From the NCBI GenBank assembly GCA_013360185.1, contig JABWCO010000017.1, forward strand, positions 1-39,525: a stretch of DNA of 39,525 nt. The letters are read 5' to 3'. The first letter of the stretch is position 1, and each line of letters starts with the position of its first letter. This DNA comes from Bdellovibrio sp. (GTDB lineage Bacteria > Bdellovibrionota > Bdellovibrionia > Bdellovibrionales > Bdellovibrionaceae). The translations under genes and the position numbers were made by a program. This document shows, piece by piece, positions 4,148 through 17,017 of this stretch. The notes under the pieces are model-generated. The model worked only from the letters and a program-made list of their open reading frames with translations. It did no database searches and was not told where the DNA came from.

Positions 4148-5152
4148 TTAGGACCATGCGCAAGACATCGATATTTGCCCCGTCCCGGAACGGATAGCAC
4201 CCAAGCGCCAGGCTTTGACGTTGTTTTTAGTTAAGTGGGACAAGACGGCCGCCGCGTCGGCTTTTTTCACTAAAATGGTTAAACCCACGCCCATGTTGAA
4301 CGTCCGAAACAGTTCTTCTTTCGGAATATCGACTCGTTTTAAAATTGTTTTAAAGACGGGTGCCATTTCATCCGTGCTGGGCCAATAGGTCAGGTCGTAA
4401 TCAAAGCTTTCGCTTATGCGTGGAATATTGTCGACACCTCCGCCTGTCATATGGGCGGCAGCCAGTATCGAAGAGGAGAATTTTTTTCGTAAGTCATTAA
4501 ATGTCTGCACATAAATTTTTGTCGGCTCCAACAGTTGCTCAATCAACGTCGTTTCATGGTCATCCACGAGCTTGCGCAACAGCGAATAGCCATTCGAATG
4601 AAAACCGCTTGAGGCTATTCCCAAAAGGACATCACCTTCTGCCATATCCTTGTCCGTGAACATTTCTTCTGGCGATAAGTCGCCGACACTGAAACCTGCT
4701 AAGTCGTACTCCCCGTCTTGATAGACCCCTGGCATTTCGGCGGTTTCACCACCGATCAAGGCCATGCCGGACTGTTTGCAACCATCAACCATCCCGGCAA
4801 TCAATTCTTCACTGACCCGAGTGTCGAGTTTACCAAAGGCCATGTAGTCTAAAAAAAACATGGGTCGCGCACCGACACACAACAAATCATTCACACACAT
4901 CGCGACCAGATCAATACCGATGCCATGATGTCTGTTGGCTTTTTGCGCGAGTTTTAATTTGGTGCCAACCCCGTCCGTGCATGATGCCAGGTACTTTTGT
5001 TCGTTTAATTTGTAAACGGCCGCAAAACCACCAATGCCTTGCAGAACCTGGTCATTAAAGGTGGTTGGCACTAAGGTTTTGATACGATCCACGAAGGCAT
5101 CAGCTTTGTGAACATCGACACCTGAAGTTTTGTAGTCCATGGATTTCGTCAT
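4148..5152 (-). CDS. purM: AIR synthetase (phosphoribosylformylglycinamidine cyclo-ligase)
   Basis: PurM closes FGAM to aminoimidazole ribonucleotide using ATP, the fifth step of purine synthesis. The 334 residues match the usual 330-350. They show the GVDVHKADAFVDRIK start, YLASCTDGVGTKLKLA, the dinucleotide-binding DLVAMCVNDLLCVGARPMFF region, GGETAEMPGVY, and GGGVDNIPR late in the protein. AAGGAG seven bases before ATG 5152 fixes the start. It is the last gene of the purine operon, 63 bases after purH. That is the widest gap in the operon, which may explain why it has its own strong ribosome site. No clear terminator follows before 4107. Confidence 0.96.
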   Translation of the reverse strand: MTKSMDYKTSGVDVHKADAFVDRIKTLVPTTFNDQVLQGIGGFAAVYKLNEQKYLASCTDGVGTKLKLAQKANRHHGIGIDLVAMCVNDLLCVGARPMFFLDYMAFGKLDTRVSEELIAGMVDGCKQSGMALIGGETAEMPGVYQDGEYDLAGFSVGDLSPEEMFTDKDMAEGDVLLGIASSGFHSNGYSLLRKLVDDHETTLIEQLLEPTKIYVQTFNDLRKKFSSSILAAAHMTGGGVDNIPRISESFDYDLTYWPSTDEMAPVFKTILKRVDIPKEELFRTFNMGVGLTILVKKADAAAVLSHLTKNNVKAWRLGAIRSGTGQISMSCAWS

Positions 5153-5215
5153 TTTGTCTCCTTGTCATTTAAAAATACTTTGCGATCTGTGACATCCAAA
5201 AATAGGAAGGCACCC

Positions 5216-6739
5216 CTAGTGAAGAAAGTGTCTTCGTCCCGTGAACATCATGGCTATGCCAAGCTTGTTGGCCTCGTTGATGACTTCGTTGTCTTTTACG
5301 GAGCCCCCTGGCTGGATGATGTATTTGATCCCGAGCTTCGCAGCCACTTGCACAGAGTCCGCAAAAGGGAAGAAGGCGTCAGAGGCCAATACCACGTGAG
5401 AGACATCCTTGATGCCCTTGTCCTGCAAACGGGAGGTGATTAATTTTTCAATGCAGTCGATGCGGTTCGTTTGACCAGAACCCATCGTTAAGAGTTCGAA
5501 CTCTGGCCCCTCTTGCTGACAAAGAGCGATGGCATTGCTTTTTAAATTTTTCACTGCGAGCATTGCAAAGCCTGCAAGCTTTTGTTTTTCGGAATTGAAG
5601 GTATTTGTTGTCACGACCTTCTCATTGCTAAGATCAAAGGAGTCTTGCTGCTGCAACAAAAGCCCCCCTTCGATAGAACGAGTCTGCCACGCGGACTGAG
5701 CTTGCAGATTTACTTCCAGGACGCGGCAGTTCTTTTTCAGTTTTTCGCGGGCACTGTCAGTAAAGGATGGCGCAAGAATCACCTCTATGAATTTTGCTGA
5801 GAAAAAATTTGCGACTTCTTCAGTGACTGGGAAATTCAAAGCGATGATGCCTCCGAAAGAGCTTTTCTGATCACCCTTCCAGGCTTTTTCTAAAGCTCGT
5901 AACGGCGTTTCTGCCACCGCCAACCCGCAAGGCGTATTGTGTTTCACCACGACCGCCGTGGGTAAAGCGTTACCTGACTGCCATGCGTGGACATCCTGTA
6001 AGGTCTTTAAGGCAAAATCGGCATCTAAATAATTATTGTAAGACATCTCTTTCCCCTGCAGCGCTTGCGCGTGTGCCAGTCCGGGATGAAAAGGATCTTT
6101 TAGGACCAGAGCTTTTTGATGAGGATTTTCACCATAACGAAGCACGTCTTCAGACTGTTGAGTTAAATAGCCTGCAATGGCCATATCGTAAAAAGCGGTC
6201 ATCGTATAAACTTTAGCAGCGCATTTTTGGCGAAAGGCCAAAGTAGTTTTTCCGTGATGGGCCGTGAATTCTTTTTGAAATTCCGCGTATTGTGAAGGTT
6301 CACAAAGCACAGTCACAGAGTGGAAGTTTTTTGCGCCTGCTCGTAACATTGTTGGTCCGCCGATATCGATATTTTCCACGCACTCTTCCAAGGCCGCCTG
6401 TTTTATTAGGGTTTCATGAAAGTGATATAAATTAACGACCACCAAGTCGATGGGATTAACACCCAGTTGAGCCGCCTGTGCGACATCTTGCGGATCATCG
6501 CGGCGATATAATAATGCCGAGGCAATTTCGAAGCTGATTGTTTTCATGCGACCTTGAAAAGCTTCGCCGTTGCCACTTAGATTTTCGACAGGCGTGACCT
6601 TAAAGCCTGCCTCGGAGAGGGCTTTTGCTGTGCCTCCGCTAGCGATCAGTTCTACGTTTTGGCTGGCCAAAGTTTGTGCTAAGGACAGCAAGTTGGTTTT
6701 ATCTGAAACACTCAGCAAAGCTCTTTTAATAAGAATCAT
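5216..6739 (-). CDS. purH: Bifunctional AICAR transformylase / IMP cyclohydrolase
   Basis: PurH performs the last two steps to IMP: formyl transfer from 10-formyl-THF to AICAR, then ring closure. The 507 residues hold an MGS-like cyclohydrolase domain (about 1-190, with [19 protein letters not shown] and GRMKT) and the transformylase domain (about 200-507, with RYGENPHQ). The catalytic pair Lys266-His267 lies in [10 protein letters not shown]. The start overlaps the purQ stop as ATGA, and AAGAGG precedes it. Length, domain order and catalytic residues are all regular, so a functional enzyme is expected. Confidence 0.97.
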
Positions 6740-7470
6740 TTTTTACCTCTTAAAAATTCAACAGCACTTTTAAAAAATTCTAAACCCCAAGCTTTGCCTG
6801 TAAATGGCAAGTGCCAATCATGCAAGGCGGCCTCTGGATGCGGCATCAAAGCAAACACCAAGCCAGAAGGGTCGCAAAGGCCGGCGACACGACCTTGAGC
6901 ACCGTTCACGTCTTCTTGATATTTCAAAACAACTTGTTGCTGCCCTTGCAAACGCGCGAAAAGCTCTTCGCTTTGACAGACGAAGCGCCCCTCGCCATGC
7001 CGAATCGGCAAAACGAAATCCTTCGGTAAACTTTTCGTCCAGACACACGGTGATTTTTCATTGCGCTCAACTGTCACCCAGCGATCGATGAAATGACCTT
7101 GCTCATTTTTCACTAAGGCACAGCTTCTTTGAAAATCTGCATCGGGCAAAAGACCCAGACGAATCAATGTTTGAAAACCGTTGCAAATTCCTAGGACGGG
7201 GCGAGTTTTTACAAACTCCTGCAGCTCGGCCTTTAAGGTGTTTTCTAATTTTAATGACAGAATCTGCCCACTGCCAAGATGGTCGCCAAAAGAGAAACCT
7301 CCTGGGAACACCAGGGCTTCGTAACTTTGCAACGAATGGGGATTTTTAAGAAGTTCGTTGACGTGAACTTTATAAGCCTCGCCCCCGGCAAGCTCGATAG
7401 CCCGGGCGGTTTCGTTTTCGCAGTTAATTCCATCGCCCCATAAAACTAGGAACTTAGGCTTGGTAGACAT
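6736..7470 (-). CDS. purQ: FGAM synthase glutaminase subunit
   Basis: This 244-residue class I glutamine amidotransferase supplies ammonia to PurL. The nucleophile Cys96 lies in GICNGFQ, and the His/Glu pair in MPHPEA near residue 220; GGFSFGDHLGSG forms the oxyanion region. It overlaps the end of purL by 17 bases and purH by four. Stand-alone PurQ normally partners with small PurL plus PurS, but the adjacent PurL here is about 1014 residues, so this looks like a long-type FGAM synthase whose glutaminase domain is a separate chain. Confidence 0.96.
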   Translation of the reverse strand: MSTKPKFLVLWGDGINCENETARAIELAGGEAYKVHVNELLKNPHSLQSYEALVFPGGFSFGDHLGSGQILSLKLENTLKAELQEFVKTRPVLGICNGFQTLIRLGLLPDADFQRSCALVKNEQGHFIDRWVTVERNEKSPCVWTKSLPKDFVLPIRHGEGRFVCQSEELFARLQGQQQVVLKYQEDVNGAQGRVAGLCDPSGLVFALMPHPEAALHDWHLPFTGKAWGLEFFKSAVEFLRGKK

Positions 7471-10400
7471 TTTGAACTCCTTGTGCCCAGATATTCTGCA
7501 AATCTTTTACGGGAACCGTCAGTGTTTGCTGCGCAAACTGCCAAGTGATCGTGGCCGCTGCTGTAACCACGCCCAAGTGCACAGCGTCTGTTTTAAAATG
7601 CGCTTCGAAGCCTGCTTTTTTTTCTGCAGGGACGCTGACGACGAAGAATGATCCGGTTTCAGACCAAAGCTGATTCCAGTTCAGGGATTCTAAGTTTATA
7701 TTCATTCCCAAGCTGTTGCCGAAACAAGATTCTGCCAGAGCTGTCATCAAACCCCCTTCAGAAATATCATGACAGGAGTTCATCAGGTCTTGCTGATGCG
7801 CTTGGTATATTTGCATATATAGCGCTGCGTTTTGCGTAAGGTTGGGATACTCAGGCAAAAGTTCATCATTGGTCACAAATTCTTGCGCAAGGATTGAGGC
7901 GTACAAACTTTGTGTCAATTTTCCGATAATATAAATTTCATCACCGGCTGATTGAAAAAATCCTGCGCAGGTTTTTTCAGCGTCAGGAATTTGACCAAGG
8001 GCTGTCACCAACAATGTCGGGGGTACCGAAATTTTGACGGTGTCCCCGCCTTTAGTTTTTCCGATGAAGTCATTTTTCATACTATCTTTGCCGCTAACGA
8101 AGGGCGCTTTGAAAGCTTGGGCGGCATCGTAAAGACCTGCGCACGCGCGCACAAGCTGCGCCATCTTATGATGTGCATCGGGATTTGAAGATTTCGGCGT
8201 GGGATCTGGCCAACAGAAATTATCCACTAAAGCCATCCGCAATGGATGGACGCCCGTGGCCACCAAATTTCGGACGGATTCATCCACCGCTTTTTGGGCC
8301 ATCAAATAAGTGTCGTAATAAGAATATTGCGGGCACAGCCCGTTGGCGACAGCAATGGCATTGTTTTCTTCCCCACCATGCACGGATAAATCGATGACCC
8401 CTGCATCATTGGCACCTTGTTGCGTTTTTCCCCCATAGGGTTTCAAACGAGTCGCTCCTTGCACTTCGTGATCGTAATAACGAATGATCGGTTCCCGCGA
8501 AGCAACGTTAGGCGATGCCAAAACTTTCTTCAGGGCCTCGAGTATCCCGTGCGCGGTTTTGCTCGGGGAATTTTGTTTCGCCGTTTTACGAAAGTACTCT
8601 GTGTATTTTTGCGGCCCCGAAAAATGTGCTTTCAAATTCATGCGGCTGAGTCCCTCATGCAAGAAATGCAAATCTAAAATGGCCAAAGGTGTTTCACCGT
8701 GGGTTACTTCGAAAAGTCCACTGTCGGTGAACTCTCCTAAGACGCTGGCTTCGACGCCTAAGTCTTGCGCGAGTTTTAAAAAATCTTTGATATCACTTGG
8801 TTTCACGGCATAAGACATGCGTTCTTGAGATTCGCTGATCAGCATTTCCCAAAACTCTAGGCCGTCGTATTTTTGTGGATGCTTTTGCAAATCCATCCGT
8901 GCACCGCCAGAAAACTGCGCCATTTCACCAATGGACGAGCTGACTCCCCCGGCTCCGTTATCGGTAATCGCTTGAATCCATCCGCGGTCACGGGCTTGCA
9001 AGGTGAAATCTAAAAGGCGTTTTTGCGTGATACTGTCCCCGATTTGCACAACATTTGAAGCCACGTGATCATGCAATGCCAGCGAGCTAAACGTCGCCCC
9101 GTGCACGCCGTCTTTACCTAAGCGTCCTCCGGCCACAACGATCAGATCCCCGGCGCTGATTTTTTTTGTTTCAGAAGGACGACCTTGGATCGTTTTTGGC
9201 ATCACCCCTAAAGAGCCGACAAAAATTAAAGGCTTTGCTGCGAACTCACTGGCAAAATAAAAAGCGCCATTGATCGTAGGAATTCCGCTTTGATTTCCGC
9301 CCTCTTCAACACCTTGATGAACGCCGCGAAAAATAATTCCAGGATCTTTGAGAAGTTCAGGACGCTCTGGACTGTCACTTTCGGGAAAGAGATCTTTTTT
9401 CGAAAGACAAAAGACATCTGTATTCGCAATTGGCTTTGCGCCCAGGCCGCAACCTAGAATATCGCGGTTCACGCCTAAAATTCCGGTCAAGGCCCCGCCG
9501 AAAGGATCTAAGGCCGAAGGACTGTTGTGAGTTTCAACTTTGATACAGACGTTGATGTTTTTATCGAAATCAACGATACCGCCATTGTCTTTGAAAACGG
9601 AAACTAAGTAACCGCAATCAGAAAGATCTCGGGTCGCTTTCTGAATATAGCTTTTGTAAAGGCTTGTTACTTTCATTTCGCCTAAAGCGGGATACGCGCC
9701 CGAGTCTTCGCTGTACTCCACTTCCGCTGCGAAAATTTTATGTTTGCAGTGTTCGCTCCAGGTTTGTGCCAGACATTCCAGTTCAACTTCTGTGATTTTG
9801 CCCGCCCACCCTTTGCCTGCGCGAAAGGTATTTTGTTCCGGCGATGAAAGGTGTCGAATGATGGTCTGAATTTCTTGGTCGCTTAGGGCCAAACCACGCT
9901 CTTGATTGATTTTATTTAAGACAGCGGCGTCTAGCGCAAAAAGCTGCAAAGTGCGACTTGCTAAGGGAGCAGCCTGCCAGAAGAACGGGAAATTCTGCCA
10001 AGTGTTTTTTTCTTTTAAGTCTTTGCCTCGTTGGATATCGACTTTGTTTAAAAGTGGGTTGGCTAAAGATTGGAATAAAACTTTTTCGATTTGTTTTTGT
10101 GAAATGTCGCCGAGAATTTCAACTTCCCAACCACTGTGCACTTGCAAAGGAAAGTCTTGCCAAGAAGTATTATGTTGCGAAGAGAACAGCATTAAAGCTT
10201 CGGTTGCTGAGCGTGCCAAATTGTCAGTCACGCCCGCCAAGAATCTGACTTCTGCGTAGGTCGCCTCTGCTTTAAATTCGGGAAAGCCGTGCTGGGCTTC
10301 TTCGGCGATCGGATCAAAAAAGATTTTATCCATTAAATTTTGAACTTTGAACTCTTTTGCAAAGCCTGGGGTTTCTTCAACCAACCAATAAACTCGGCGC

Positions 10401-10498
10401 AAGCGTAAATCTGTGACTTGTCCCTCTTGGGCTAAAACTGCCCGTAACGACTTTTCAGTACTGAAATCATATAAACTTCGGACAGATATTCTGTGCAT
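7454..10498 (-). CDS. purL: FGAM synthase, synthetase subunit of intermediate length
   Basis: PurL makes FGAM from FGAR, ATP and ammonia. The 1014 residues begin with a PurS-like region fused in one chain (residues 1 to about 160), a linker, and then the two tandem ATP-binding AIRS-like halves, with KVETHNSPSALDPFGGALTG near 320 and later ITDNGAGGVSSSIGEMAQ and SGKDSMKN. No C-terminal glutaminase domain is present; it is encoded by purQ next door. Large proteobacterial PurL is about 1300 residues with that domain, and small PurL about 740 without the PurS part, so this protein is in between. The start codon overlaps the purN stop. All signature motifs look intact. Confidence 0.95.
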   Translation of the reverse strand: MHRISVRSLYDFSTEKSLRAVLAQEGQVTDLRLRRVYWLVEETPGFAKEFKVQNLMDKIFFDPIAEEAQHGFPEFKAEATYAEVRFLAGVTDNLARSATEALMLFSSQHNTSWQDFPLQVHSGWEVEILGDISQKQIEKVLFQSLANPLLNKVDIQRGKDLKEKNTWQNFPFFWQAAPLASRTLQLFALDAAVLNKINQERGLALSDQEIQTIIRHLSSPEQNTFRAGKGWAGKITEVELECLAQTWSEHCKHKIFAAEVEYSEDSGAYPALGEMKVTSLYKSYIQKATRDLSDCGYLVSVFKDNGGIVDFDKNINVCIKVETHNSPSALDPFGGALTGILGVNRDILGCGLGAKPIANTDVFCLSKKDLFPESDSPERPELLKDPGIIFRGVHQGVEEGGNQSGIPTINGAFYFASEFAAKPLIFVGSLGVMPKTIQGRPSETKKISAGDLIVVAGGRLGKDGVHGATFSSLALHDHVASNVVQIGDSITQKRLLDFTLQARDRGWIQAITDNGAGGVSSSIGEMAQFSGGARMDLQKHPQKYDGLEFWEMLISESQERMSYAVKPSDIKDFLKLAQDLGVEASVLGEFTDSGLFEVTHGETPLAILDLHFLHEGLSRMNLKAHFSGPQKYTEYFRKTAKQNSPSKTAHGILEALKKVLASPNVASREPIIRYYDHEVQGATRLKPYGGKTQQGANDAGVIDLSVHGGEENNAIAVANGLCPQYSYYDTYLMAQKAVDESVRNLVATGVHPLRMALVDNFCWPDPTPKSSNPDAHHKMAQLVRACAGLYDAAQAFKAPFVSGKDSMKNDFIGKTKGGDTVKISVPPTLLVTALGQIPDAEKTCAGFFQSAGDEIYIIGKLTQSLYASILAQEFVTNDELLPEYPNLTQNAALYMQIYQAHQQDLMNSCHDISEGGLMTALAESCFGNSLGMNINLESLNWNQLWSETGSFFVVSVPAEKKAGFEAHFKTDAVHLGVVTAAATITWQFAQQTLTVPVKDLQNIWAQGVQNVYQA

Positions 10499-11118
10499 TA
10501 TGCAGGCTCCTGAAAAGGGTGACTAGAAATTTGGCCTGAAGCCAGAGATTCTAAAAATTGACCGTAAACTTCGTGCTCAAGGAGGTGAAACTTTTGCTTC
10601 CAAGTCTCTAAGGACTCGCTCTTCGCAAGGGGCAAAGATTTTTGCAGCAAAATTTTTCCCGTGTCCATGCCTGCGTCGACCAAATGCAAAGTCACGCCAC
10701 TTTGACTAACTTGGTCGTGGTAAGCCCGCGCAATGGAATCTAAGCCCGGATAACCCGGAAGCAAAGAAGGATGAATATTAACGATTTGTGGGCAGCCACT
10801 GTGCCAGTCGGCGAAGGTCCTTAAAAAAGACGGCGAAATAAGACGCATGTAACCCGCCAGAAAAATCCAATCAATTTTATATTCCTTGGTGAGGTTTAAA
10901 ATTTCTTGTTCTTGGTTTGCACGCCCCTTATGAGGCGTCACTAAAAACGTGCGAATGTTTTCATTTTTGGCTTTTTCTAAAACAGGGGCCTGGGCATTGT
11001 CGGAAAGCACGAAAGTGATTTCAATTTTATGCGCCGACAGCTCTTGCGCTTTTTTTATAAGTGCCAAGGCATTTGAACCTGTTCCTGACGCAAAAATGGC
11101 GATACGCAGTGGTTTCAT
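10498..11118 (-). CDS. purN: GAR transformylase, formyl-THF dependent
   Basis: PurN transfers a formyl group from 10-formyl-THF to GAR, the third step of the pathway. The 206 residues include the phosphate loop ASGTGSNAL at about 10-18, the active site VNIHPSLLPGYPG (Asn114, His116) and an Asp in the MDTGKI segment near 152, at the position of the third catalytic residue of this fold. The start overlaps the purD stop by four bases (ATGA), and the stop meets purL by one base. No formate-dependent PurT appears in the window. Confidence 0.96.
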   Translation of the reverse strand: MKPLRIAIFASGTGSNALALIKKAQELSAHKIEITFVLSDNAQAPVLEKAKNENIRTFLVTPHKGRANQEQEILNLTKEYKIDWIFLAGYMRLISPSFLRTFADWHSGCPQIVNIHPSLLPGYPGLDSIARAYHDQVSQSGVTLHLVDAGMDTGKILLQKSLPLAKSESLETWKQKFHLLEHEVYGQFLESLASGQISSHPFQEPA

Positions 11119-12353
11119 TCAGCTATATCCTCGCGGTAATACATGCCTTCAAAGAAAGTCCTTTTAAGATCGCTGTAGGCAACTTCACGAGCTTCTGCTT
11201 TCGTCCCCGCCAGGGCCGTCAATCCTAAAACACGGCCCCCGGAGTTCACTAAATCCTCGGCCTGCTTTGCCACGCCCGAAAAATATAACTGTGTTTTAAG
11301 AGTGTTCATCGCCGGAAGCGAAATCGGACGTTGTAACAACATCTTTGCCTGTGGGTATCCCTGACTGACGGCTACGACATGAACACAGGTTTGAGTCGAG
11401 ACTTCACATTTTTGATTTTTCAATTCGTGTTTTACTGCAGCAACTATCAAACTTAATAAATCAGATTTAAGGCGAGGCAGTAACGCTTGAGTTTCCGGGT
11501 CCCCCATCCGCACATTGAATTCAAGGACATAGATTCCTTGGGACGTCTTCATCAGTCCTGCAAAAAGGAACCCTTGATAAGAAAGCTTCTTCTGTGAAAG
11601 TGTTTGCAGGGTTTTAGAAAAAACATTGTGGATGGCTTTTTCATCCTCGGCAGAAATAAAATCGCAAGGACTGTAAGCCCCCATTCCGCCCGTGTTCGCG
11701 CTGTAAGGATCTGGCGTTATGCGCTTGTAATCGCAAGCTGTGCCTAAGACTACAAAGTCGTTTCCATCACATAATGCAAAGGCAGAAAGCTCTTGTCCAA
11801 TTAAACACTCCTCAAATAACAGAGGATACCCAAACTGTTCAGCTAAAGCATCCACGGCTTCTGTAGCATGGGCCTTACTGGAACACACCCAAACACCTTT
11901 GCCTTGGGCTAAACCATCGGCCTTCACAACGATCGGCTGGGTAAAATCGTGGGTGTTCACCACAGAAAGGGCCTGCTCGTAATTCTGAGCAACGGCCCCT
12001 TTTGCGGTCGGGATGTCTGCTGCGTCGAGAATACTTTTGCAAAAAATCTTGGAAGATTCTAGCTTCGCCACCTGTGGGTGAGGAGCAAAACAAGGGATGT
12101 CATGTTGAGCTAAGCGCTCTTTGAGGTCGGAAAGAATTAACGACTCAGGCCCCACGACGACTAAAGAAATATTATTTTTTATGCAGAACTCGGTGATTTC
12201 TTCTGCGGTCTCGACGGGCGCACAGCGCAAACCCGCCAAGGTCATTCCGGGATTTCCCGGGCAAACCCAAAGGTCCGATAGCAAAGAGGACTCTTTGAGC
12301 TTCCATGCGAGGGCATGCTCCCGTCCTCCTTTACCGACGACAACGACCCTCAT
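11115..12353 (-). CDS. purD: GAR synthetase (phosphoribosylamine-glycine ligase)
   Basis: This 412-residue ATP-grasp ligase joins glycine to phosphoribosylamine, the second step of the pathway. It shows MRVVVVGKGGREHALAW at the N-terminus, VVVGPESLILSDL, the ATP-grasp segment VVKADGLAQGKGVWV, and the metal-binding EFNVRMGDPETQALLPR near 290. Length is regular (about 420-430 in E. coli). Start and stop overlap neighbouring genes by four bases each, implying translational coupling. It is not fused to purM or purN, unlike the eukaryotic protein. Confidence 0.96.
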   Translation of the reverse strand: MRVVVVGKGGREHALAWKLKESSLLSDLWVCPGNPGMTLAGLRCAPVETAEEITEFCIKNNISLVVVGPESLILSDLKERLAQHDIPCFAPHPQVAKLESSKIFCKSILDAADIPTAKGAVAQNYEQALSVVNTHDFTQPIVVKADGLAQGKGVWVCSSKAHATEAVDALAEQFGYPLLFEECLIGQELSAFALCDGNDFVVLGTACDYKRITPDPYSANTGGMGAYSPCDFISAEDEKAIHNVFSKTLQTLSQKKLSYQGFLFAGLMKTSQGIYVLEFNVRMGDPETQALLPRLKSDLLSLIVAAVKHELKNQKCEVSTQTCVHVVAVSQGYPQAKMLLQRPISLPAMNTLKTQLYFSGVAKQAEDLVNSGGRVLGLTALAGTKAEAREVAYSDLKRTFFEGMYYREDIAE

Positions 12354-13387
12354 AGGGACCTCTGCAACACATCTTGGGCTTTTTTATGCCACAGTTTTAA
12401 ATTTATTTCTGCGGCAAAGGGTTTTGTGCCTCCGACATGAGCGGCAACTTCATTGGCTAACGCTTGATAAAGTAAAGAACTGACTTCGATTTGTTCAGTA
12501 CTTAAATGTTGCGGTACTTGTTTAAGCTCTGCAGTACAAATCGTTTTCCAGTCTTGGGTTTTACGTTCTTTGGCGAGGTCTTTGGCTTTTTTTACAGCCT
12601 CACTCCACGGTGAAGATCCGTAAAGCTGGCGCAAGAATTCTTTTGATAGTGGCAGATCTTCGTATGTCAGGCGAAGTTCATCAGGTCCTATGGAGTCCAC
12701 TAATAACAACGACCGTTGCCCAGAAGCCTGCTTTTTGCCAAAGGCAAATTCCAATTTTCCGTCCCAAAGTTTGACCCCGAAAGAGGCAAAAAGTTTTTCT
12801 AACTCGGCCACCACCGTTTGCGTTTGTTCGCGCATCGCTTGCATTTCTGAATCAGAAATTACATTCATCGCCAAAATTTCGGCGCGGCTAAGATATCTGT
12901 CGGAGGTTTCTAGCTTGGTAGAAACCTCCACTAGGGCAGGGTTAAAACTAGTCGCGGCAGAGGGCATTTCTTTAAGTCCTAAATCTTTAAGATAGTCAGG
13001 ATTTTTTTTAAGGCGGCCTTCTAAAGAATTACCCTGGCCTAAATGGCGACGAAAGATAACTTCTAAAGGAACCAAACAATGTGTCGGCTTATCCGCATAC
13101 ATCGAGTAATCGTATTGTCCTTCGATCCATAACGGCCGTAAAACATTTACCTCTTGCACAGCTAAGGTGTTTCCCCCTAAGGAGGCGATATAATGCGAGG
13201 AAATTCCTTTGCTTTTCAGATACTCAAAGAATGAAGCTGCCAGCGAGGCCAAAGCTTCACCTTTATGTGGTATCTGGTCCGGCATCTCGCCCCAGTCAAA
13301 TATGGAATAGCGATCGCTGTACTGAAAAACCAAACCTGTTGTATTTTTGCAAAGGTCCTTCACCGAACCGCGATAAATTAATTCCAT
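12350..13387 (-). CDS. purC: SAICAR synthetase, long form
   Basis: PurC condenses CAIR with aspartate, using ATP. At 345 residues it is about 100 longer than the common 237-residue enzyme and resembles the long PurC class of some gammaproteobacteria. Recognisable parts are the N-terminal YRGSVKDL and FQYSDRYSIFDWG (the usual KVRD..VF..DR segment), GKLEFAFG, and the late LVDSIGPDELRL with LSKEFLRQ. The stop region overlaps purD and the start overlaps the end of purE by 10 bases. The extra length is spread through the middle and the C-terminus. Confidence 0.92.
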   Translation of the reverse strand: MELIYRGSVKDLCKNTTGLVFQYSDRYSIFDWGEMPDQIPHKGEALASLAASFFEYLKSKGISSHYIASLGGNTLAVQEVNVLRPLWIEGQYDYSMYADKPTHCLVPLEVIFRRHLGQGNSLEGRLKKNPDYLKDLGLKEMPSAATSFNPALVEVSTKLETSDRYLSRAEILAMNVISDSEMQAMREQTQTVVAELEKLFASFGVKLWDGKLEFAFGKKQASGQRSLLLVDSIGPDELRLTYEDLPLSKEFLRQLYGSSPWSEAVKKAKDLAKERKTQDWKTICTAELKQVPQHLSTEQIEVSSLLYQALANEVAAHVGGTKPFAAEINLKLWHKKAQDVLQRSL

Positions 13388-14097
13388 GCTGTCTTACCCA
13401 TTTCATTAAGCTTTTTCCACTGCAGAACAAAGTTCGTGACATTATTAGCACCAACCCACAGCCCCTCGTGCCGAGCTTTGGCGTAAAAATCCAAAGCTAA
13501 GTTAGAGCTTGCGAGCTGTTCCTTTTCACACAGGAACAAGTTTAAACCTTTCACTCTTGGCAATTCCCAAGGGCTGACGATTTCGCCGAATGCTTGCGCA
13601 TCTTGTGGCGAGCACCAAAGGACCTCGGCTCCGCTTTGCGTACTAATTTCTTCAATCGCTTTTTGGATCGGCGAATAGGACTCAAGATTTCTGTTCCAAT
13701 GCAGATGTATTTTGTCAGAGGAAAGATTCCGCCAAGAATTGATGATGTCAGCAACACCATTGGCATTTTCTTCCGTCACGGCCATGACAGGAATCCCGCG
13801 AGGCATTTGCACGATTGATAAGAATGAATCAAGTCCTGCAAAAGCACCGTTCACAGAAACACCAATCACAGGTTTTTGGGTCAATGAAGCCACCACACCT
13901 GGCAAGTGAGCCGCTAAACCAGCGCCTGCGACAAAAAGATCTGCGCCACAATTTTGTACGATGTCGCGCACTCGTTCGGGATCACGATGGGCCGACGCCA
14001 CTTCCATCTTCACAGACCCACATTTCTCTAAAGATCTGCACAACGGACCGTAGACTCTTTCGTCGTTGGCGCTGCCAAAAAGCACTTGGATTTTCAT
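13378..14097 (-). CDS. purE: PurE carboxyaminoimidazole ribonucleotide mutase with C-terminal extension
   Basis: The start MKIQVLFGSAND is chosen because its ATG overlaps the purF stop (TTATGA), in line with the rest of the operon; the frame stays open upstream but only within purF. Residues 1-125 form the PurE domain, with His37 in SAHRDPE, AGAGLAAHLPGVVA and GLDSFLSIVQMPRGIPV. About 115 further residues (from KIHLHWNR to the end, with NLALDFYAKARHEGLWVG) match no domain I recognise. PurE usually works with PurK, which is absent from the window. The extension could support oligomerisation or a second activity; this is unknown. Confidence 0.9.
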   Translation of the reverse strand: MKIQVLFGSANDERVYGPLCRSLEKCGSVKMEVASAHRDPERVRDIVQNCGADLFVAGAGLAAHLPGVVASLTQKPVIGVSVNGAFAGLDSFLSIVQMPRGIPVMAVTEENANGVADIINSWRNLSSDKIHLHWNRNLESYSPIQKAIEEISTQSGAEVLWCSPQDAQAFGEIVSPWELPRVKGLNLFLCEKEQLASSNLALDFYAKARHEGLWVGANNVTNFVLQWKKLNEMGKTAWN

Positions 14098-15551
14098 AAA
14101 GGCACCTCGCTTTTCCCATTTCCACCGATATTGTGTTTTCGTGTGTTCATAAATTTTTCTGTCGCCACAGGAACGGGGTAGTCTCCATCGACGCAGGCAC
14201 TGCACAGGCTGGATAAACCAATTCCTTCTTTCAGACGCTCTAAAGGCAAGAAGACCAGGCCATCGACCTCAAGAATTTTAGCCACTTCGTCCTCGGTCTT
14301 TTGATGAGCCACCAGGGACTCTCCATCTGGAAAATCGATCCCATAAAAACAAGGATGACGAATGGGCGGACACGTACTGGCCAAATAAACCTTTTCAGCG
14401 CCGGCTTCACGCAGCAAACGCACAATTCGTGCGGAGGTTGTTCCGCGCACAATACTGTCATCCACCAGTAAGATTTTTTTACCGCGAATTTCACTTTGTA
14501 CCGGCGAAAGCTTCAAATTCACCATCATCTTGCGCAATTCGGGCTGATTAATAATAAAACTTCTTTGCACGTAGCGATTCTTTATTAGGACCTCGCGATA
14601 GGGCTTTCTTAAAACTTCAGCCAAGCTGCAGGCGGCTGCACGAGAGGTATCAGGCACTGGAGCGACTAGATCGACTTCAAAGCCCTTGGCCTTGCACTCT
14701 TCTGCTAAAATTTTGCCAAGGTTTAAACGCACTTCGTAAACGGGACGTCCATGCCATTCCGTTTCAGAACCGGCAAAGTAAATCCATTCAAACATGCACG
14801 GACGAGGTTTCTTTTCCGTAAGTTGAAAGCTGTGCAAGTTTAATTCTTTATCAACCATCACCAATTCGCCGGGGCGAAGGTCACGCCAGTACTCGTACCC
14901 TAAACCGAAAAACACCTGCTTTTCAGAGGCAAAGCAATAGCTGTACTTATCACCGTTCTTTTTTCTGCCTAAGAGTAAAGGCCTGATACCATTGCTGTCG
15001 CAGAATGCAAAAAGCCCGTGATCTGCGAGTATGCCGATTGCGCTATAAGCCCCTTGGACTTTTTCTAAAAGCTCTTTAATGGCGACAGCTAAATTTTGCG
15101 GCAGACTTTGCGAGTCTTTGCGCGCCCCTAAACCCACTGCTGTCATATGCAACAAAATTTCTAAGTCATTGTGACTAAAGGTCCAGCGTAATTTGCCCTT
15201 GCGCAAATAATCGACGACCTCGTCATAGTTCGTGACGTTGCCATTATGGATCATACCAATGCCATAGGGATAACTTAAAAAAAGCGGCTGAAGGTCTTCC
15301 TTATCAACTGTCCCTATCGTTGAATAGCGCGTGTGTCCTATCGCCATGGACCCTTTTAGCTGTTGCATACGCTCGGGGCTGAAAACGTCTTCGACAAGAC
15401 CTAAATCTTTTTCCAAGTGAAACTGTGTGCGTTCGAAGTCATAGCTTAGAATTCCCGCGGCATCTTGACCACGATGTTGAAGTGCGAAGAGTGCCGGATA
15501 CAATTTTTCGCCGGCTTTGTCTTCGCCGATAAGTCCTACGACACCACACAT
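14094..15551 (-). CDS. purF: Amidophosphoribosyltransferase
   Basis: PurF commits PRPP to purine synthesis by swapping pyrophosphate for ammonia from glutamine, and is normally inhibited by AMP and GMP. The 485 residues begin MCGVVGLIGED, so Cys2 becomes the N-terminal nucleophile; GHTRYSTIG and IGMIHNGNVTNYDE complete the Ntn-hydrolase half. The C-terminal phosphoribosyltransferase half has the PRPP loop ILLVDDSIVRGTTS near residue 360. The start follows AAGGAAG with good spacing. It is the first gene of the operon, and its 5' region carries the leader hairpin described separately. Confidence 0.97.
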   Translation of the reverse strand: MCGVVGLIGEDKAGEKLYPALFALQHRGQDAAGILSYDFERTQFHLEKDLGLVEDVFSPERMQQLKGSMAIGHTRYSTIGTVDKEDLQPLFLSYPYGIGMIHNGNVTNYDEVVDYLRKGKLRWTFSHNDLEILLHMTAVGLGARKDSQSLPQNLAVAIKELLEKVQGAYSAIGILADHGLFAFCDSNGIRPLLLGRKKNGDKYSYCFASEKQVFFGLGYEYWRDLRPGELVMVDKELNLHSFQLTEKKPRPCMFEWIYFAGSETEWHGRPVYEVRLNLGKILAEECKAKGFEVDLVAPVPDTSRAAACSLAEVLRKPYREVLIKNRYVQRSFIINQPELRKMMVNLKLSPVQSEIRGKKILLVDDSIVRGTTSARIVRLLREAGAEKVYLASTCPPIRHPCFYGIDFPDGESLVAHQKTEDEVAKILEVDGLVFLPLERLKEGIGLSSLCSACVDGDYPVPVATEKFMNTRKHNIGGNGKSEVPL

Positions 15552-16033
15552 ACATAACTTCCTTGTTGAGATTTTTTCTTGCTAGCTTTGAAAAGACTGA
15601 AGACAGGTGCAGAAAATAAAAAAGGCGTCGATACGACGCCTTTAATATTAGTAACTATATTCAAATTTTTCTGACACTTCGGATTCGCAGAGACACGAAG
15701 GGTGTTGAGTCGGGATTTATCCCCCGGACTACCCCCTGATGGAGGCCAATAAAGCGATTTTTCTCTTAAAAAACGCGGGACCATACGACTCTCTTTTGAG
15801 TAAGTATTTAACTTTGTTTTCAACACGCTGTCGGATGACCAAAGCTAGCGAGCATGACAGAGTTCGGTCAAGAGCCCTAACACAATCCTAACAAATCAAC
15901 TCTTCGCGTCTTTAAAAACAGGAGTTTCAGCTGCTCTACGATTTCATCAACTTCATAGATAGAGCCCCAATTCAGGACATCTCAAAGCGGCCTAACAAAC
16001 CCCCTAAGAACAGCCACCCGACAAATTTCCTTA
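15552..16033 (-). promoter_or_regulatory. purF leader and promoter region, no protein gene supported
   Basis: These 482 bases separate the barrel-protein gene from purF. A weak promoter (TTGACC at 15866-15871 and TAGCTT at 15842-15847, minus strand, spacer 18) would start a leader of roughly 280 bases. The leader contains several GC-rich paired segments (CCTCCATCAGGGGG; a second around GGGGGATAAATCCCG; ACACCCTTC with GAAGTGT) and then the terminator. I could not match it to the purine, ZTP, PRPP, THF or T-box consensus. A minus frame from ATG 15777 runs through the leader but lacks a convincing ribosome site. Positions 15881-16033 show nothing recognisable. Confidence 0.5.
15615..15643 (-). 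terminator. Intrinsic terminator-like hairpin in the purF leader
   Basis: On the minus strand a perfect 9-10 pair stem (AAAGGCGTCG with CGACGCCTTT) is followed by TTTTTTATTTT, the form of an intrinsic terminator. It lies about 65 bases before the purF ribosome site and no upstream gene is near. It either attenuates purF transcription or ends a small leader RNA. Confidence 0.75.
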
Positions 16034-17017
16034 TTAGAAATGCAGACCAATAACCATATTCACACCAGGGTTTACGACAAAACCATAGGCCTGACTGAAA
16101 TCGATATTGGGGATCAACTTATAATCCAACATATCCTTATATAAGATGTGATGCCAACTCAGCGAAAAGTTATAACCATCCAGCTGGTAATTCGGCTGAT
16201 TGATGGAGGTGATAAACATATTGTAACCTAGGGCCATCCGCGGATTGAATTGCTGCCCCAAGGACAGACCTTGAGTGACGGTGTAAAGATGCGGTCGACT
16301 TTGATAGTCGCCCTCATTCACCCATGTCAAACTCCATATCTTTGTCAGTATCCAATTAAAGTTCAAAGAATGGAAAATTCCCGCACCTTTCGATGGCGTT
16401 GCATAGAGCTCAAGCTCTGGGTTCACCTTATAGGTACGCATATCGGCGATACTTTCAAACTTCAGCGAATGAGAAATCGCAGGCGTCCCTTCAAAGGTAA
16501 TACGAGGGCGAAAGGAGGTTTTCACTTCACCCATTTTTTTAATCAGGCCCAATGAAGCCCCGTAATTTGTCGTTCGACGATTTTGACGAAGATATTTTTG
16601 CCGAGCACCGCGCTCTTCGGCATCATCGTAACTGGTAAACGTCAAAAGCCAGTACTCTTCAACATTTGGTAAACGTAAATTGCCGTTAAAGTTAACACCG
16701 CTGCTGGTATTATCAAAACGCGTATAGGCGCCCTCAAATTCTATGGTCACAGACGTCTTATTTGTTTTCTTGGTGTAGCGCTGCCCCGCCAGAAACATAT
16801 CCAAACCGTCCGCCATGTCGACAAACCATTCCGAAATCGAAGCATTCGTTTCTAAAAATGACTCCTCGATAGTTTTATACTCCCCTTGGCCTTGGCCGCC
16901 GGAAAGCGGTTCTTCAGATCTGCTAAACGGAGAACTAAAAATACAAAACAAAAACAGTACAGTCCTCAAACTGAACATTTTCTTGTCTAAAGATTTTAGT
17001 TGTATTTTTCCGTTCAA
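16034..17017 (-). CDS. Predicted outer-membrane beta-barrel protein
   Basis: This 327-residue protein carries a signal peptide (basic start, then FSLRTVLFLFCIFSS, cleavage near SRSEE). The remainder has alternating hydrophobic/polar strands with many aromatic residues, and the final residues VIGLHF end in phenylalanine, the usual signal for barrel insertion. The start is a TTG, chosen because AAGGAG lies eight bases upstream; the internal ATG at 16978 has no such site and would shorten the signal region by 13 residues. The ligand or pore role is unknown. Its start lies only 16 bases from the start of a divergent gene. Confidence 0.72.
   Translation of the reverse strand: MNGKIQLKSLDKKMFSLRTVLFLFCIFSSPFSRSEEPLSGGQGQGEYKTIEESFLETNASISEWFVDMADGLDMFLAGQRYTKKTNKTSVTIEFEGAYTRFDNTSSGVNFNGNLRLPNVEEYWLLTFTSYDDAEERGARQKYLRQNRRTTNYGASLGLIKKMGEVKTSFRPRITFEGTPAISHSLKFESIADMRTYKVNPELELYATPSKGAGIFHSLNFNWILTKIWSLTWVNEGDYQSRPHLYTVTQGLSLGQQFNPRMALGYNMFITSINQPNYQLDGYNFSLSWHHILYKDMLDYKLIPNIDFSQAYGFVVNPGVNMVIGLHF

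Follow-up and report, generated by a model that had tools for sequence, protein, structure and literature searches.

The purF operon and its promoter region

The window, by which we mean the whole stretch of 39,525 nucleotides from Bdellovibrio sp. that was analysed, carries a compact purine operon on its minus strand. Behind a terminator hairpin the genes follow in the order purF-E-C-D-N-L-Q-H-M, as named by NCBIfam and Pfam. The first of them, purF (14094..15551, minus strand), scores above the cut-off of NCBIfam TIGR01134 and is preceded by a ribosome-binding site, AAGGAAG, read from the sequence at 15558..15564 of the same strand. The remaining genes purE, purC, purD, purN, purL, purQ, purH and purM occupy positions 4148..14205 (minus strand; NCBIfam and Pfam names). 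The genes behind the hairpin thus serve nucleotide synthesis, as do those of attenuated operons of the pyrBI type.

Upstream of the leader, a sigma-70-like promoter is predicted at 15844..15871 (minus strand), composed of TTGACC (15871-15866), a 16-nt spacer and GCTAGC (15849-15844). This promoter was overlooked by a simple promoter scanner. Since the block is strongly conserved, with TTGAC[CG] and a -10-like element kept in all 20 PurF-bearing genomes of the genus, it is not a chance match. Directly 5' of the -35 element lies a further conserved block (15872..15899, minus strand), in which the consensus of the 20 genomes displays two TGTYAGG elements 11 nt apart. These approximately 28 nt are almost invariant in 20/20 PurF-bearing genomes, which exceeds the promoter's own needs, and by its conservation the block looks like the site of a dedicated regulator.

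The region 5' of the promoter varies between species, and the leader and purF therefore seem to be retained together as one unit. In the window, this region contains an ORF on the same strand (16034-17017, minus strand, 327 aa, TTG start) for which no Pfam match was obtained.

The terminator hairpin

The leader ends in an intrinsic terminator (15612..15643, minus strand), the candidate attenuator, which was defined by folding, conservation and covariation. Its stem-loop, AAAGGCGTCG-TAT-CGACGCCTTT, extends from 15643 to 15621 and is followed by a T-tract that reaches about position 15612. In isolation, the 39-nt hairpin folds with -17.1 kcal/mol (z -6.2), and none of 200 shuffled sequences folds as well. 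With this hairpin and the promoter found in 20/20 genomes, the order of promoter, leader of about 230 nt and intrinsic terminator before purF on the minus strand, as given in a preliminary description of the locus, is borne out.

An inverted repeat with a T-tract precedes purF in all 20 PurF-bearing genomes. The distance between the end of the hairpin and the purF ATG is 16-26 nt in 15 of these genomes and 51-69 nt in the other five, to which the window belongs with a distance of 69 nt. As most genomes leave no room for a separate promoter in between, transcription of purF must pass the hairpin. In an alignment of the hairpin from all 20 genomes (19 distinct sequences), a standard pair is found in 171/171 cells, and two pairs have changed on both sides, in seven cells altogether; when the alignment was slid as a control, pairing amounted to only 24-75%. 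Judged by this alignment, the hairpin is maintained at the RNA level. Three genomes (G011, G021 and G022; loci L050-L052) contain a second inverted repeat, GTGGCATCRTTGACGATGCCAC-like, between the terminator and purF, directly in front of the purF ribosome-binding site.

Folding of the remaining leader

The preliminary description had mentioned GC-rich stems ahead of the terminator and had read the layout as that of a riboswitch or an attenuator. The stems proved to be nothing unusual: the 191 nt of the leader that remain after removal of the hairpin show no excess folding (z -1.3, 23 of 200 shuffles as good), and RNAalifold predicts the terminator as the sole helix in an alignment of 14 of the 20 leaders (G004, G005, G011, G016, G021 and G022 were omitted from this alignment and its fold). 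Accordingly, neither RNAalifold on the 14 leaders nor shuffle folding of the window's own leader revealed a conserved, covarying aptamer. The covariation check suggested for purF leaders is therefore positive for the terminator and negative for the rest of the leader.

A search of Rfam with the window and 19 related loci gave no match at the gathering score, in agreement with the earlier statement that the leader fits none of the known purine, ZTP, PRPP, THF or T-box patterns. Low-threshold matches within the leader were attributed to chance; most correspond to the terminator itself and none comes near the gathering score. A 6S RNA had been suspected from the position of the leader, and the only RF00013 match of the genome lies elsewhere, on contig C227. 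Because the terminator is the sole predicted helix and Rfam gave no match in the window and the 19 loci, an aptamer is disfavoured and a riboswitch is unlikely. Of the two proposals, the attenuator is the one retained, given that transcription of purF has to run through the hairpin. In the search for an antiterminator, the 20 leaders were folded one by one with the hairpin's 3' arm removed; the 5' arm then either pairs with various upstream segments or stays unpaired, and none of its partners is consistent among the leaders.

A leader ORF extends through the terminator

The leader is filled by a small ORF of 82 codons (15536..15784, minus strand; sequence comparison), which starts with an ATG at 15784, spans the terminator and has its stop 13 nt into purF. 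It is preceded by a Shine-Dalgarno-like element, AAAAGAGAG (15789..15797, minus strand), and a purine-rich element is present at this place in 19/20 leaders. The preliminary description had seen no gene to terminate in front of the hairpin; this view has to be corrected, as the hairpin itself lies within the conserved ORF that occupies the leader. The presumably translated ORF also largely replaces the small RNA gene considered there; a short, terminated RNA would be produced all the same.

An ORF of 45-82 codons that stays open as far as the final hairpin base is found in all 20 PurF-bearing genomes. It starts 38-87 nt past the first base of the -35 element. Counted from the purF ATG, its stop codon begins between positions -15 and +19, and it lies 3' of the hairpin in 20/20 cases. 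In each genome the terminator thus lies within the frame of the leader ORF, which is the arrangement of a pyrBI-type attenuator, and the distance from the leader start to the hairpin (92-204 nt in the 20 genomes) is on the scale of pyrBI. Seven of the 20 stop codons (+10 to +19) fall into conserved purF sequence and are weak evidence for a tuned end point, because purF's own conserved sequence supplies them.

Across the hairpin, the leader frame is free of stop codons in 20/20 genomes, the other two frames in 0/40 cases. According to dinucleotide shuffling, a frame would be open through the hairpin by chance with a probability of 0.02-0.26 per genome, values that are not to be multiplied since the 20 genomes are related. 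In G016 (locus L045), the leader ORF begins 38 nt past the first base of the -35 element and, unlike the other 19, lacks a Shine-Dalgarno-like element; from its sequence, the leader mRNA of this genome may be leaderless or nearly so.

Evolution of the leader ORF

Protein-guided alignments were used for the codon-position and dN/dS tests. In five pairs sharing no sequence, mismatches are distributed over the three codon positions as 28/20/55 (chi-square p 5.6e-5), and dN/dS ranges from 0.10 to 0.65 in 11 pairs of leader ORFs. Nucleotide-only alignments likewise show an excess at the third position in most of the diverged pairs, for example 4/7/21 with gaps of 3, 3 and 6 for G000/G013. In such nucleotide-only alignments the coding signal is absent or non-significant for G006/G023, G018/G001, G020/G013 (p 0.37), G012/G013 (p 0.13) and G005/G013 (p 0.12). 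Judging by this pattern of evolution, the leader is probably translated.

Fifteen genomes of the genus share the peptide MxQRLFLRxKSLYxPPSGGSPGxKSRLxTLRVSxxPKCQKNLNIxxxxNGVxxTPFLF, always in front of purF. In a search of 140 genomes of the order for relatives of the peptide, all 15 matches belong to the genus, are single-copy and precede purF; a weak match in G048 with three internal stops was taken as chance. Ten leader peptides were aligned, several rows being cut after the hairpin-coded part; omitted were the near-duplicates G001, G002, G003 and G023 and the diverged G004, G005, G011, G016, G021 and G022. None of ten leader peptides matched Pfam or NCBIfam.

Largely different peptides are encoded in G004, G005 and G011/G021/G022, and the frame is nevertheless open through the hairpin. 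In G004 the ORF has a TTG start and a different frame at the hairpin. An open frame across the terminator combined with a freely changing protein is what a coupling mechanism requires, and hence the frame matters beyond the peptide.

Distribution of the layout

A DNA search of 59 related genomes detected the same leader in front of purF within the genus, where a PurF search located the gene in 20 of 24 genomes, leaving four without PurF. In addition, 73 regions upstream of purF were scanned, derived from 80 loci after exclusion of six without a found start and one that was too short. Terminator-like hairpins are present in four of the 73, all from the same genus (L083-L086), and the layout occurs in 0/69 purF upstream regions from outside the genus. 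By these searches, the layout seems to be confined to the genus.

Neither purF nor purH was found in G009 (88% complete), G010 and G019. G015 has purH and lacks purF, and no pur gene lies in the 6 kb around the expected place of purF. De novo purine synthesis has apparently been lost in some members of the genus.

Proposed mechanism of attenuation

Taking terminator and ORF together, we consider it fairly probable that transcription of the de novo purine operon is attenuated in this leader by a translation-coupled mechanism like that of E. coli pyrBI (pyrL), and on the pattern of conservation translation of the leader ORF probably decides purine gene expression in Bdellovibrio-type predators. 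A ribosome following close behind RNA polymerase would cover the emerging hairpin, resulting in read-through and expression of purF-E-C-D-N-L-Q-H-M. A polymerase running ahead of the ribosome would allow the hairpin to form and transcription would stop.

The likeliest signal would be the supply of purine nucleotides. A run of A residues (15666..15670, minus strand) lies in an AT-rich tract 5' of the hairpin and is a weak candidate for an ATP-dependent pause region. The mean A fraction of the 40 nt before the hairpin is 0.44; at 14 further terminator-like sites of the window and four related loci it is 0.37. The longest A-run comprises 4-8 nt and reaches p<=0.05 in roughly half of the 20 leaders. 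Terminators are often preceded by A-rich sequence, and with its modest enrichment the tract is compatible with an ATP sensor. At low ATP or GTP, polymerase might be slowed in this tract, allowing the ribosome to catch up, which would switch the operon on; with plentiful purines, for instance when the predator feeds inside its prey, ribosome and polymerase would be uncoupled and the operon would be off. It is conceivable, and put forward here tentatively, that the leader is the purine counterpart of pyrBI in the full sense, with the A-rich tract tying the speed of polymerase to ATP, the terminator-spanning ORF providing on/off control, and the predator making purines while hunting and stopping when it feeds on prey nucleotides.

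Published proteomics data are of interest in this context. Passages of PMC12546842 report that the amidophosphoribosyltransferase Bd3009 is low from the time of invasion and, 2 h into prey, stands at 0.06 (6%) of its level in attack phase, and the authors propose that it is suppressed during the use of prey purines; the figure concerns protein, and these passages do not state whether the drop originates in transcription. We infer that Bd3009 is the purF studied here, because the purF of G006, a genome that carries the leader, is located at 2.907 Mb, about the position to be expected for gene number 3009. It is the sole PurF in G006, the other match being GlmS-like. The drop of PurF inside prey has the direction predicted by a purine-repressed attenuator. 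A gate set by translation capacity alone, off in attack phase and on during growth, is disfavoured, as the same passages report lower PurF during growth in prey. In the open-licence literature on Bdellovibrio purine genes, purF and purine attenuation, no paper on this leader was found.

If attenuation is coupled to leader translation as proposed, it would offer a testable mechanism for the published, unexplained collapse of PurF on entry of Bdellovibrio into prey and would explain the predator's switch from making to stealing purines. It would also illustrate that a real attenuator ORF can escape notice, in this case owing to its overlap with the terminator and the following gene.

Alternative explanations

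The leader might instead be a nascent-peptide or codon-sensing attenuator, in which a conserved peptide (…YPKCQQNLNI…, with a PP motif) stalls the ribosome on a metabolite or charged tRNA and the position of the stall decides on terminator formation. Conservation of the peptide under purifying selection in the main clade speaks for such a role, and a YPxCxQNL-like motif is in frame in G011/G021/G022 as well; G004 and G016, however, lack the motif. Moreover, there is no run of regulatory codons, the longest run of a single residue being two in 19 of the 20 leaders and KKK in the remaining one, and the absence of a consistent antiterminator weighs in the same direction. Altogether we regard a peptide sensor as rather unlikely, and note that the conserved peptide of the main clade may itself act, e.g. 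by stalling ribosomes.

A similarly low probability is assigned to control at initiation, with a purine-responsive regulator binding the block 5' of the -35 element and terminator and ORF adding only constitutive damping. The near invariance of the block is in favour of a regulator, which could by itself account for the repression of PurF. Yet a search of the window's own genome for a regulon with the TGTYAGG repeat yielded a perfect match only at this site and no second good copy, the three others having two mismatches, compared with six matches for the reversed pattern used as control; nor does regulation at the promoter explain why the ORF is retained through the terminator. Initiation control could operate together with attenuation or instead of it.

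Less probable still is a gene for a functional small protein whose own terminator is the hairpin, with purF transcribed by leaky read-through. Values of dN/dS down to 0.10 and the single-copy occurrence in constant position before purF would suit such a gene. A terminator is normally placed 3' of the stop codon, though, whereas the ORF spans it in 20/20 genomes, and G004, G005 and G011/G021/G022 have not kept the peptide. An unrecognised riboswitch or small RNA, suggested by a leader of about 230 nt that ends in a terminator, is highly improbable in view of the terminator being the sole conserved, covarying fold, the unremarkable folding of the leader without it (z -1.3), the lack of Rfam matches and the codon-like evolution of the leader.

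Comparison with known systems

Purine, PRPP, ZTP and related riboswitches control pur genes by premature termination. The purF leader would share this outcome at the same class of genes and differs in having neither an aptamer nor an Rfam match. With attenuators of the trp/his type it has in common a leader peptide and an intrinsic terminator; unlike in these systems, the leader contains no run of regulatory codons, no antiterminator was found in it, and its ORF stops 3' of the hairpin in 20/20 genomes and not before the terminator.

A closer parallel is the ATP-responsive leader of Salmonella mgtCBR, where, according to passages of PMC3641672, a short ORF (mgtM) overlaps conserved adenines and encodes a non-conserved peptide. 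Transcription of mgtCBR is switched on by high ATP, whereas high purine should turn the pur operon off, and mgtM works via alternative stem-loops.

The leader ORF of E. coli pyrBI stops shortly before the first structural gene, and the purF leader ORF likewise ends at the first gene of its operon. Both operons serve nucleotide synthesis and have an intrinsic terminator inside the leader ORF: for pyrBI, passages of PMC4824070 describe the terminator as lying within a leader ORF of 135 bp and as not repressed at normal UTP. Passages of PMC3641672 add that the pyrBI leader ORF overlaps a uridine-rich stretch through which UTP alters coupling, and those of PMC5021804 that the terminator is prevented when ribosome and polymerase are tightly coupled across pyrL. 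The purF leader differs from pyrBI in controlling purine instead of pyrimidine genes, in its A-rich instead of U-rich tract, in its unrelated peptide and in its occurrence in another phylum, with purine supply as its presumed signal. If the proposed mechanism is correct, a leader ORF spanning the terminator would control purine synthesis as pyrBI controls that of pyrimidines, and would do so in a distant phylum, using another nucleotide tract.
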